NCBI GenBank assembly: GCA_944367465.1
Contig: CALVWO010000004.1
Coordinates: 1-49,190, forward strand
Reading direction: 5' to 3'
Source of the DNA: an uncultured Clostridia bacterium
Lineage (GTDB): Bacteria; Bacillota; Clostridia; Christensenellales; Borkfalkiaceae
DNA length: 49,190 bases
The notes below the pieces were generated by a model that was given only the letters and a program-made list of their open reading frames with translations, ran no database searches and had not been told where the DNA came from. Of the stretch, positions 782 to 5,938 are shown one piece after another (positions within the stretch are counted from its first letter, which is position 1; each line of letters begins with the position of its first letter). A program made the position numbers and the translations under genes.

Positions 782-1531
782 ATGCGTAAATTTTCTGCAG
801 GAGCAGCACTGTGCGCTTCAGCCTTTACAACAGCTCTTGCTGTTGCGTGCATGACGGCATGCGCGCCCCGCTATCCCGACGAGGCATACGAAAATCATCC
901 TGTGGCAGACCTGATCGCGGAATATCTGCACGATCCTTCCGATGAGACCTTTTCTCCGCTGACCGACACGGGGTTGAAAAAGGTCTCCGAGAGTGAACTG
1001 CGCGCCGCGCTCGGCGGCGCGGCGGAGGAAGCGATCGGCGTTTCCCGCACCTATCTGTACATGGAGCGGACGATAACAAACGGCGGCGAGACGATCGTCT
1101 CCCCCATTGTATACGCCTATGCTTACGCGGGCGACAGCGAACTGTACGGAACGGGGACTCTGATCGTGCACACCAACGGAAAGAAAGTTGTCGCGGAGGA
1201 AGGCGTCGCCTATGAAGATCTCCGCGAAACATATACGGCAGTCATGCGCGAAGTGGTCACTTATCAGTTTCTTCCCGAGGCAGGAAGCGCGAACTATGAA
1301 TGTATCGCCGTTTCCAACTTTGCGGCGGCAGAGATCTACCGTTCCGTGCCCGACTTTGGTGAATTCCACGACACCGAATATGCCCTGACGCAATTCGGAC
1401 CATACTGCGACGACGCCGTGACGCCCTACCTCGCGGGAGAACGCGTCGGCAAGGATATGTGCATGACAGAATTTGCCGTGACATACGAAGGAGAGACCGT
1501 GGGTTCCGTTCCCATGCCGCACAGGAGATAA
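782..1531 (+). CDS. secreted lipoprotein of unknown family, paralogue 1
   Basis: A 249-residue protein I do not recognise. The N-terminus is a lipoprotein signal: MRK, a hydrophobic Ala-rich stretch, then a Cys (C27 by alignment with its paralogues; C23 is an alternative). The mature part should be tethered outside the membrane. It shares with the next two genes a block HPVADLIAEYL after the lipobox, a YTER/YMER-type segment, a SP-VYAYAY stretch, QFLPEAGSANYECIA, and FGPYCDDAVTPYLAGE near the C-terminus. It is the most divergent of the three: its C-terminus ends VGSVPMPHRR where the others end in IGTVPLSRGRE. The start has AGAGGA upstream. It is probably transcribed with the following two genes. 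Function is unknown. Confidence 0.85.
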   Translation: MRKFSAGAALCASAFTTALAVACMTACAPRYPDEAYENHPVADLIAEYLHDPSDETFSPLTDTGLKKVSESELRAALGGAAEEAIGVSRTYLYMERTITNGGETIVSPIVYAYAYAGDSELYGTGTLIVHTNGKKVVAEEGVAYEDLRETYTAVMREVVTYQFLPEAGSANYECIAVSNFAAAEIYRSVPDFGEFHDTEYALTQFGPYCDDAVTPYLAGERVGKDMCMTEFAVTYEGETVGSVPMPHRR

Positions 1532-1533
1532 GC

Positions 1534-2292
1534 ATGAAAAGAACATATTTCTATGCATTGTTTACAGGGATCATTCTATCTGCCGCGCTCGGTATTTCCG
1601 CCTGCGCGGGAGAAACCAACTACCCTTTCTCTTCCTATCTCGATCATCCCGTAGGAGATAAGATCGCAGCATACCTTGAAGACACCTTCCTCACCGAAAC
1701 GCCGCGAACGGCGGAAAGCATGCGTTCTACACTCGCCGAAGCGGGACTTCAACTGACGACGGAAGAGGAACTCTCCGCCATTTTGGGGGAAGTCGCCGCG
1801 CCGATCTTCGGAGATGACCGCAATTATTTTTACACGGAGCGTACATTCAAGGCACAAAACGGACAGGAGATCGTCTCCCCCGCCGTATATGTATACGGCA
1901 CAGGGGAAGATCTGCGCTTTACGGAATACATCCGCGGAGAAACAGACGGCACAACATGGGATTCCTTCGATTGCTCCGTATATGACGTACTCTCTTTTCA
2001 GTTTTTGCCCGCGGAAAACGGTACAGGCTACGAATGTATCGCGCACTCCGATTTCGCATTTGCAGAAGTCATCTATGCGGAACACGGCGTCGAATACAAC
2101 GGGCAGTCCTCCGATCCCGTTACAACATATACCCGCCTCACGTTTACACAATTTGCCCCTTACTTCGACGACGCGGTCACGCCCGTGTTAGCAGAAAGGG
2201 ATATTGAGCCGGATATGCGCCTTTCGGAAACGGATATCATCCTCGGCGGCGTGGAGATCGGCACCGTTCCCCTCTCGCGCGGGAGAGAATGA
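1534..2292 (+). CDS. secreted lipoprotein of unknown family, paralogue 2
   Basis: A 252-residue protein starting 2 bp after the preceding stop, with AGGAG placed over that stop codon, so translation is probably coupled. Signal peptide MKRTYFYALFTGIIL leads to an ISAC lipobox. The mature protein begins AGETNYPFSSYLDHPVGDKI, nearly the same as paralogue 3. Other shared blocks are FTEYIRGE, SFQFLPAENGTGYECIA, FTQFAPYFDDAVTPV and the ending VEIGTVPLSRGRE. It contains no enzyme motif that I can name. The near-identical DNA at the 5' and 3' ends of paralogues 2 and 3 points to recent duplication or gene conversion. An in-frame upstream start at 1459 is rejected because it lies inside the previous gene and lacks a signal peptide. 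Confidence 0.85.
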   Translation: MKRTYFYALFTGIILSAALGISACAGETNYPFSSYLDHPVGDKIAAYLEDTFLTETPRTAESMRSTLAEAGLQLTTEEELSAILGEVAAPIFGDDRNYFYTERTFKAQNGQEIVSPAVYVYGTGEDLRFTEYIRGETDGTTWDSFDCSVYDVLSFQFLPAENGTGYECIAHSDFAFAEVIYAEHGVEYNGQSSDPVTTYTRLTFTQFAPYFDDAVTPVLAERDIEPDMRLSETDIILGGVEIGTVPLSRGRE

Positions 2293-2374
2293 CCGCTCCT
2301 TCCGAGTAATATTTCTCTTGTCTGATGTTTACAACAGCAATCCATTAAATGATATGTTTTGCGGGAGACATACG

Positions 2375-3130
2375 ATGAATTCTAAAAAATATCCTGTTTT
2401 TGTTACCACGATCTTCGTTGTCTCAGCGATCGCACTCTCCGCTTGCGCGGGAGAAACCAACTACCCCGTTTCCGCCTATATGGATCATCCCATCGGAGAT
2501 GCGATCGTCTCGTATATGCAGGGAAAGGACGGCTCCTATATTTTCCCCGATCCCGACATAGGCACCGCGCTTACGCAACTCGGCGTCGAAGTTGTTTCGG
2601 AAGAAACGCTGCGAGAAAAGCTGGGCGACGAAGCAGACGCCCTCTTCAACGAACCCTGCACCTACCTGTATACAGAACAGACCGTTCCCATGCAGAACGG
2701 TTTATCCGTCAGTTCCCCTATCGTCTTTGTAATCAGTGCAGCTGACAACAGACGCTTTATCGAATCGTTCCGGGGGCCGGAAATTTTTGGCGGCTCACGA
2801 TGGGAAAGCTTCTTTGTTTGTGTATACGAAATATTATCTTGGCAATTTCTTCCCTCCGAAAAAAACAACGGCTACGATCTTGTCGCTTTGTCGGAATTTG
2901 TATTTGCCGATATTTTTTGTACAGAACATTATTTTTCTTCTCCGGGGCAGACGGCTGCAACGCAATCAAAATACACTTTCGCACAATTTGCCCCTTATTT
3001 TGAAACGGCAACGAAGTACGAATCAGAATACGGCGATGAACTTCCTGACGATCTGCGGCTGAAAGAAGTCACCATAGATATCGGCGGCGTAGAGATCGGC
3101 ACCGTTCCCCTCTCGCGCGGGAGAGAATGA
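2375..3130 (+). CDS. secreted lipoprotein of unknown family, paralogue 3
   Basis: A 251-residue protein with signal MNSKKYPVFVTTIFVVSAIA and lipobox LSAC, followed by AGETNYPVSAYMDHPIGDAI. The start has GGGAG upstream; the frame is open further upstream, but that extension overlaps the previous gene and has no signal peptide. The centre (about 2740-2960) is noticeably more AT-rich than its neighbours and diverges most from paralogue 2, whereas both ends are almost the same. The last residues match paralogue 2 (VEIGTVPLSRGRE), and the DNA identity continues for about a dozen bases past the stop. It is followed by a rho-independent terminator. Function is unknown; it is likely the last gene of a three-gene unit. 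Confidence 0.85.
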   Translation: MNSKKYPVFVTTIFVVSAIALSACAGETNYPVSAYMDHPIGDAIVSYMQGKDGSYIFPDPDIGTALTQLGVEVVSEETLREKLGDEADALFNEPCTYLYTEQTVPMQNGLSVSSPIVFVISAADNRRFIESFRGPEIFGGSRWESFFVCVYEILSWQFLPSEKNNGYDLVALSEFVFADIFCTEHYFSSPGQTAATQSKYTFAQFAPYFETATKYESEYGDELPDDLRLKEVTIDIGGVEIGTVPLSRGRE

Positions 3131-3140
3131 CCGTCCCTTC

Positions 3141-3169
3141 CGGCGGATTCCCAACCCGCCGCATTTTTT
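3141..3169 (+). terminator. rho-independent terminator after the lipoprotein genes
   Basis: CGGCGG (3141-3146) pairs with CCGCCG (3156-3161) around a 9-nt loop, followed by CATTTTTT. It lies 10 bp after the stop codon. Confidence 0.75.
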
Positions 3170-3196
3170 ACAATTTTTTTACAACTTTGTGCGGAC
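3163..3196 (+). repeat. AT-rich block, copy 2 (upstream of the candidate RNA)
   Basis: This repeats the 684-715 block: TTTTTTACAA, a T-run, ACAACTTTGTGCGGAC. Both copies precede a -10-like hexamer. Confidence 0.7.
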
Positions 3197-3220
3197 TTTT
3201 TTACATCTGTCTGCTATGAT
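3192..3220 (+). promoter_or_regulatory. probable promoter of the candidate RNA
   Basis: TATGAT lies at 3215-3220 with CGGACT (3192-3197) 17 bp upstream; only the GAC core of the -35 matches consensus. Initiation would fall near 3226-3228, exactly where a 7-bp stem begins. Confidence 0.5.
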
Positions 3221-3225
3221 ATATG

Positions 3226-3413
3226 CGGACGGACGGGAAAGACTCCCGATCGGGTACGACGCCCGAAAACGTCCGCGTGCAACTGCCCCTTGCACATCTT
3301 CATCGTCACCGCGGCAAAAGCATGATGCAGCCGCGGACTCCGTCGGGAGTTCCCGCCCCGACGGAGCCATCCTCCCAAAGGCGCTCCCATATTTATGGGC
3401 GCGTTCTTTTTTT
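3226..3413 (+). ncRNA. candidate structured non-coding RNA, family unknown
   Basis: No plausible gene occupies 3131-3531. Instead there is a promoter-like element, a chain of helices and a terminator. Helices read directly are: 3225-3231/3270-3276 (7 bp) enclosing 3234-3238/3244-3248 and 3250-3254/3262-3266, which forms a three-way junction; 3277-3282/3290-3295 (6 bp, 7-nt loop); 3309-3315/3330-3336 (7 bp, GC-only, 14-nt loop); 3338-3347/3357-3366 (10 bp perfect); and the terminal hairpin at 3381-3402 followed by TTCTTTTTTT. The transcript would be about 185 nt. pgk has its own consensus promoter downstream, so this is better explained as a free-standing RNA than as a pgk riboswitch. I do not recognise the family; it does not match the riboswitch cores I know. 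Confidence 0.55.
3381..3413 (+). terminator. rho-independent terminator of the candidate RNA
   Basis: GCG plus CCCATA (3381-3391) pairs with TATGGG plus CGC (3394-3402), with a 2-nt bulge, followed by a run of eight T in ten bases. Confidence 0.8.
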
Positions 3414-3463: not shown

Positions 3464-3492
3464 TTGACAAATTTTTCAAAAAGCATTAGAAT
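3464..3492 (+). promoter_or_regulatory. sigma-A promoter of pgk
   Basis: TTGACA (3464-3469), 17 bp, TAGAAT (3487-3492). The expected start is near 3499, giving a 30-nt leader with AAGGAG before the pgk ATG. Confidence 0.9.
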
Positions 3493-3531: not shown

Positions 3532-4854
<1,323 letters not shown>

Positions 4855-5140: not shown

Positions 5141-5938
5141 ATGAAACCCTCATATTTCAGGAATCCCATCATCGCGGGAAACTGGAAAATGAACAACACC
5201 GCCAAGGAGGGCGTTGCGCTCGTGAACGCGCTCAAACCCCTCGTGAAAGACGCTTCGTGCGAAGTCGTCGTGTGCGTGCCCGCCATCGATATTCCCGCCG
5301 TCGCGGAAGCGCTCGAAGGGAGCAACATCCAGCTCGGCGCGCAGAACGTGCACTACGCGGAGCGCGGCGCATACACGGGCGAGATCTCGGCGGAGATGCT
5401 CAAAGAATACGGCGTGAAATACGTGATCATCGGTCACAGCGAACGCAGACAGTATTTCGGCGAAACGGATGAAACGGTCAATATGCGCGCGCTGACAGCC
5501 ATCAAAGAGGGCATCACCCCCATCGTCTGCATCGGAGAAACGCTGCAGGAACGCGAAGGCGGCAGGACGAAAAAAGTGCTTGCGCGCCAGATCGAAGAGG
5601 GACTTGCGGGCATCGAAGATATTTCCAAGATCGTCATCGCATACGAACCCGTATGGGCGATCGGCACGGGCAGAACGGCGACCTGTGAGCAGGCGAACGA
5701 GACGATCGCCTTTATCCGCAGCAAGTGCGCGGAGCTCTTCGGCGAGGATAAGGCGATGCGCATGCGCATCCAGTACGGCGGTTCCATGAACGCGGGCAAC
5801 TGCCGCCAGCTCATGGACATGCCCGAGATCGACGGCGGACTCATCGGCGGCGCCTCGCTCAAAGCAAAGGATTTTGCCGAGATCGTGCATTTCGACAAGG
5901 GCATTCAGGGCATGCGCCTTCCCAAAGAACTCATGTAA
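5141..5938 (+). CDS. tpiA: triose-phosphate isomerase
   Basis: Interconverts dihydroxyacetone phosphate and glyceraldehyde 3-phosphate. It is a full-length 265-residue TIM barrel. Catalytic residues are visible: K16 in AGNWKMN, H99 in IGHSERR and E169 in AYEPVWAIGTG. The phosphate-binding loops IQYGGS and DGGLIGGASL are present. The ATG at 5141 is chosen because AGGAGG lies 6 bp upstream; an in-frame GTG at 5102 lacks a site and is too close to the predicted transcription start. gpmI follows after 68 bp that contain a 12-bp hairpin. Confidence 0.97.
   Translation: MKPSYFRNPIIAGNWKMNNTAKEGVALVNALKPLVKDASCEVVVCVPAIDIPAVAEALEGSNIQLGAQNVHYAERGAYTGEISAEMLKEYGVKYVIIGHSERRQYFGETDETVNMRALTAIKEGITPIVCIGETLQEREGGRTKKVLARQIEEGLAGIEDISKIVIAYEPVWAIGTGRTATCEQANETIAFIRSKCAELFGEDKAMRMRIQYGGSMNAGNCRQLMDMPEIDGGLIGGASLKAKDFAEIVHFDKGIQGMRLPKELM

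Follow-up and report, generated by a model that had tools for sequence, protein, structure and literature searches.

A small RNA gene with a predicted Pho-box promoter beside pgk in gut bacteria of the Candidatus Gallimonas group

Introduction

The iron-starvation small RNA (sRNA) IsrR of staphylococci is ∼174 nt long, has two Fur boxes and folds into three stem-loops plus a terminator; its unpaired C-rich regions act on Shine–Dalgarno regions, there is no shared dependency on a chaperone such as Hfq, and its first two stems are conserved with little covariation (PMC9410917). PHO boxes of Escherichia coli and other bacteria consist of 11-nt direct repeat units, to which a regulator of the OmpR family binds head to tail at PhoB/PhoP-regulated genes such as pstS (PMC4415409). 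sRNA candidates with predicted PhoB sites are known from Sinorhizobium meliloti, in which some sRNAs rise on phosphate starvation, although those induced in this way had no evident PhoB site (PMC2573895).

The locus described here lies in a 49 190-nt stretch of DNA from an uncultured Clostridia bacterium, which is referred to as the window. A structured RNA between lipoprotein genes and pgk had been proposed there from the letters of the DNA (the original prediction). To this the present work adds a Pho box, which points to the likely trigger of the RNA.

Methods

For the Pho-box matrix, 18 pstS promoters were taken from other genomes of the genus and the −10 element was left out. The matrix was run over the window (98 282 positions), over a 400 kb sample of other stretches of the same genome (∼800 000 positions) and over 1.18 Mb of fetched sequence. 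Homologues of the RNA were sought by BLASTN in 101 relatives, by inspection of the DNA upstream of pgk together with a motif search, with a covariance model (R1) and by an exact pattern scan of ∼85 000 species genomes. Alignment A2 contained seven sequences (the window, G018, G059, G107, G013, G017 and G319) and was fitted to the model; the double changes in hairpin H4 and the terminator also appear in a plain MAFFT alignment. Folding energies were compared with those of 200 dinucleotide shuffles, and the consensus structure with shuffled and slid controls.

Results

The RNA gene belongs to a gut bacterium of the Candidatus Gallimonas group. The features of the locus (window coordinates) are

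3142–3169, + strand: GGCGG..CCGCC and then a T run, likely the intrinsic terminator that serves the lipoprotein genes upstream (from the sequence; unflagged by the consensus scan)
3165–3208, + strand: Pho box TTTACA-N5-TTTACA-N5-GTGCGG-N5-TTTACA, direct repeats phased at 11 bp (pstS-derived matrix)
3215–3220, + strand: −10 element TATGAT, extended by a preceding TGC (from the sequence; every homologue has a −10-like hexamer in the corresponding position)
3226–3413, + strand: sRNA of ∼185–188 nt (fold z-score −4.05; R1 matches in six other genomes)
3226–3275, + strand: H1, in the window lineage a three-way junction with two near-identical hairpins (fold, alignment)
3277–3295, + strand: H2, GTGCAACTGCCCCTTGCAC, with a C-rich loop; candidate pairing region (six of six stem pairs invariant in seven sequences)
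3296–3308, + strand: unpaired conserved linker ATCTTCATCGTCA, antisense-like to start-codon context (alignment)
3309–3336, + strand: H3, CCGCGG stem with a conserved GCATGA in its apical part (94.7% of cells paired)
3338–3366, + strand: H4, variable stem kept by compensation (double changes in seven of ten pairs)
3367–3376, + strand: C-rich unpaired linker CCATCCTCCC followed by AAA; candidate anti-Shine–Dalgarno pairing region (alignment)
3377–3413, + strand: intrinsic terminator with a T run (double changes in six of 12 pairs; scan match at 3386–3399)
3464–3492, + strand: separate pgk promoter TTGACA-17-TAGAAT (11 of 12 consensus matches)

The gene is a stand-alone intergenic unit with its own −10 element, from the position of which the start was read as ∼3226/3227, and its own intrinsic terminator, closed by T7 at 3413. 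Since a likely terminator at 3142–3169 precedes it, the RNA is probably not transcribed from the upstream lipoprotein genes. The minimum free energy was −81.6 kcal mol−1, compared with −63.3 ± 4.5 kcal mol−1 for the shuffles, none of which (0/200) was as stable. The original prediction of a discrete RNA of ∼185 nt with a terminator was thus upheld by the fold and by the location of its parts, which include the three further stems that it had named (H2, H3 and H4). Its separation from the pgk promoter was also confirmed, the promoter of pgk lying beyond the RNA terminator. The RNA had been placed outside the known riboswitch and housekeeping RNA families; a covariance-model search of Rfam (4227 families) agreed with this, giving no match at the gathering threshold and none at E ≤ 10.

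The predicted three-way junction is present in the window but is not conserved. H1 is one interrupted hairpin in G018, G059, G107, G013 and G017, whereas the window and G319 have a duplicated pair. At 3226–3275 of the window the tandem hairpin duplication (CGGGAAAGACTCCCG/CGGGTACGACGCCCG) rebuilds the 5′ domain as a three-way junction, which is restricted to the window lineage because the hairpin was duplicated there. H2 has the form GTGCAAC..CCCC..TTGCAC, with a stem that is unchanged across the alignment. The linker at 3367–3376 is C-rich in all homologues, and a similar CTCTCCCAA is found in other Pho-box RNAs (see below).

With BLASTN, G059 and G018 stood out as clear homologues, each with the RNA immediately upstream of pgk; those matches below ∼41 bits (L008–L034) that were inspected were chance matches in coding DNA and were rejected. 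G107 and G013 were added by inspection and motif search. A covariance model had been suggested as a check on the original prediction, and R1 recovered the RNA from six other genomes (E = 2e-52 to 3e-14), in all of which it sits beside pgk; the additions were G017 (3e-14, same genus) and G319 (4e-40, another genus of the family). Weak R1 matches in other genera (G299, G331, G227, G258 and G383) were rejected as the motifs were absent. The pattern scan yielded 56 loci, of which 50 were unrelated (many being one shared Lachnospiraceae sequence) and six, the same ones, passed R1; no further locus did so. The carriers include Candidatus Gallimonas merdigallinarum and Ca. Borkfalkia faecavium. In the latter (G319, genus g47; L125) the RNA and lipoprotein region are nearly identical to the window, pgk diverges past its 5′ part and the locus is near a contig end; this copy was treated as an assembly chimera or a recombination in pgk and left out as evidence of independent spread.

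In A2 the consensus structure had 89% of its cells paired, compared with 79.9% (mean) for shuffled and 38–54% for slid controls. Compensatory changes, on which the original prediction had staked itself, were abundant: 20 base pairs were changed on both sides among the seven sequences, compared with a mean of 7.7 for shuffled and 2–6 for slid controls, and RNAalifold agreed. Judged by sequence and predicted structure, the RNA represents an sRNA family that had not been described before and that has a narrow range.

Most of the genus has pgk without the RNA gene (G116 and G011, for example, have no RNA beside pgk), and in a small midpoint-rooted pgk tree the carriers fall on both sides. Upstream of pgk in G049 (L222, ∼3634–3665) the first Pho boxes, TTTTACAACTTTGTGCGG, are fused to GACTTGCATGA from H3; in comparison with G013, the junction looks like the result of a deletion between two GCGG repeats that removed the RNA gene. 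The gene therefore appears to be dispensable and was apparently lost there.

The promoter-like element of the original prediction was retained in part: the extended −10 is present, but in place of a good −35 hexamer there are four phased 6-bp boxes. The top match of the matrix in the window was 3165–3214 (score 38.4), abutting TATGAT; the runner-up was position 686 (5.9, before the lipoprotein gene at 782) and all other positions scored below −8. With the RNA-bearing genomes removed from the matrix the Pho box of the window scored 39.5, and held-out pstS promoters scored 30–72. At each of the seven RNA loci the Pho box was the top match (32–49) and immediately preceded the −10 element, while the best score in the background sample of the same genome was −0.9. 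The odd third box, GTGCGG, is common to the RNA promoter and the pstS promoters. BLASTN of the region within its own genome gave a match (5.7e-6) on contig C61, in DNA that precedes the start of a lipoprotein. The N-terminus of this lipoprotein, MKKKIFAIGLAAAMSVTAVGLMAGCG, is also that of the PstS frame that lies at one end of contig C38 and is followed by pstC. The assignment of the control element as a Pho box is strongly supported by these comparisons. The RNA is very probably controlled by a PhoB-type regulator and most likely belongs to the Pho regulon; it is likely to be made when phosphate is short, because its promoter has a control element in common with phosphate-uptake genes.

A PhoB/PhoR-type two-component pair is encoded in the same genome, downstream of pstSCAB-phoU-nptA on contig C38 (gene order pstS-C-A-B-phoU-NptA-RR-HK). 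The operon of G018 runs pstS-pstCA-pstB-phoU-Na/Pi symporter-response regulator-histidine kinase; its response regulator combines a Response_reg with a Trans_reg_C domain and matches PhoB best in NCBIfam, and the best match of its histidine kinase is PnpS, both below the equivalog cut-off. Hfq (PF17209) was absent from the ten genomes searched, in which positive controls were detected.

On the 1.18 Mb of fetched sequence the matrix gave 55 matches above 8. The strong ones were mostly either promoters with a Shine–Dalgarno start downstream (pstS and others) or terminator-ended units of ∼90–190 nt without a start, the pgk-side RNA among them. A second such RNA of the same genome (contig C62) has an CGGGGGAAAACTTGTAACG hairpin and related units in G107, G018 and G116. 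It lies at ∼5400–5555 on the − strand (L220, G000), is ∼100 nt long with a strong terminator and a conserved hairpin with GGGGGAAAAC, and precedes a gene for a product with the N-terminus MQTIPEILAEELGQ, which we take to be Tex-like. Further Pho-box RNAs were found in G130, G040 (two in tandem) and G029 (two). G130, G040a and G029a have a hairpin, then ATCTCTCCCAAC and then a terminator, the same plan as ATCCTCCCAAA in the pgk-side RNA. In the tandem pairs (L261 in G040, L265 in G029) the first members share the ATCTCTCCCAAC linker and the second members share GCGGGGGAAAACTTGTAAGCGC.

Pho-box-like elements were also seen before protein-coding genes. Three paralogous lipoprotein genes occupy 782–3130 of the window, and ahead of the first, at 686–748, are TTTACA, TTTACA, GCGACA and ATGACA, set roughly a helical turn farther from the −10 element than in the RNA promoter; the lipoproteins gave no family match in Pfam and NCBIfam. 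Promoters of this kind are also present in L263 (G015), L274 (G114) and L275 (G029), each ahead of a gene whose protein starts with MPA(T/I)YAHR, and before a gene of the same type near 10200 on contig C9 of G000; this gene is possibly a further member of the Pho regulon.

Complementarity to mRNA start regions was assessed in the same genome. The linker ATCTTCATCGTC made at least ten contiguous pairs in eight of 194 called start regions (crude gene calls), compared with a mean of 1.1 for shuffles keeping CAT, none of which (0/200) equalled eight; nine of 142 antisense-of-start controls were as good as this linker (about 0.06, crude gene calls). The H2 loop and the C-rich linker showed no clear excess of pairing with the 194 called start regions (crude calls).

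Discussion

The pgk-side RNA is probably a phosphate-starvation-induced, Hfq-independent, trans-acting sRNA, the conserved, unpaired C-rich segments of which would pair with mRNA start regions and lower translation. When phosphate is scarce, a regulator of the PhoB/PhoP type, encoded with pstSCAB-phoU, would bind the phased boxes and switch on the extended −10 promoter, yielding an RNA of ∼185 nt that ends at its own terminator. The RNA would pair with mRNA start regions without Hfq through the C-rich H2 loop and the linker before the terminator, with the UCAUCGUC linker perhaps acting as a further pairing segment, and translation of the paired mRNAs would fall.

A Pho-regulated RNA that binds protein as a sponge or scaffold, and does not pair with mRNAs, is a rather unlikely alternative. 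In H2 and at the base of H3 the primary sequence itself is conserved and compensatory changes are few or absent, as would be expected of a protein-binding site, and close relatives have a GGA-containing 5′ end; against it, the GGA repeats are gone in G013 and G017, and the C-rich loop and linker resemble known pairing motifs. The loss of these repeats also led to rejection of the idea of a CsrA sponge. It is improbable that the RNA is independent of phosphate and that its promoter merely resembles a Pho box: promoters often have T-rich DNA upstream, but the match preserves the spacing as well as the third box, with its unusual GTGCGG, and scores far above any of ∼800 000 background positions; moreover, most members of the genus lack the RNA, which would not be expected of a housekeeping RNA. 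A cis-acting leader or riboswitch-like attenuator of pgk would account for an RNA that is terminator-ended and always upstream of pgk on the same strand, but is very improbable given the strong promoter that pgk has of its own downstream of the RNA terminator, the distance from pgk in G013 (618 nt from the conserved hairpin) and in G017 (>480 nt, with an apparent ORF between), the many pgk genes of the genus without the RNA and the lack of an Rfam riboswitch match. A short mRNA for a small protein is scarcely credible: open frames exist inside the RNA (e.g. a GTG frame in H2), but they differ among homologues or cross the terminator, the shared GTG frame begins within the H2 stem, the length varies from 161 to 188 nt with indels not in threes, and no reading frame is kept across the homologues.

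We thus regard a trans-acting pairing sRNA as the probable reading. Its tie to pstS through the promoter provides a testable circuit in an uncultured gut lineage, from low phosphate through a PhoB-type regulator to the sRNA and its targets. The other Pho-box RNAs of the genus suggest that phosphate is spared by means of RNA, and more such RNAs could be found with the Pho-box matrix. More tentatively, several unrelated Pho-box RNA families, in G040 and G029 in tandem and with C-rich CUCCC or G-rich GGGGGAAAAC motifs in common, may together form a multi-sRNA, Hfq-free phosphate-sparing response of the genus; if so, RNA would here carry most of the effect of phosphate starvation, as a counterpart of the iron-sparing response.

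A validated PhoB/PhoP-driven base-pairing sRNA of Gram-positive bacteria was not found in the open-access literature. C-rich unpaired motifs like those of the pgk-side RNA occur in FsrA of the Firmicutes. RsaE, also of the Firmicutes, has C-rich unpaired motifs as well. Both differ from the pgk-side RNA, which lacks an Rfam match, in length and control. The S. meliloti sRNA candidates resemble it in their predicted PhoB sites but belong to a different host. With the PHO-box genes it shares the 11-nt direct repeats, which in this genus are common to the RNA and the pstS promoters of the genus itself; the difference is that the product is a noncoding RNA and that binding of the regulator is deduced from the boxes. 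IsrR offers what may be a close functional analogue, both being nutrient-starvation sRNAs under the regulator of the nutrient concerned, as read from the promoter in the case of the pgk-side RNA. They are also alike in approximate length, in stem-loops ahead of a terminator, in unpaired C-rich regions and in having conserved stems that show little covariation. The two have no known sequence relation; IsrR occurs throughout Staphylococcus and answers to iron through Fur repression, whereas the pgk-side RNA is found in seven genomes and would answer to phosphate through activation by a PhoB-type regulator.
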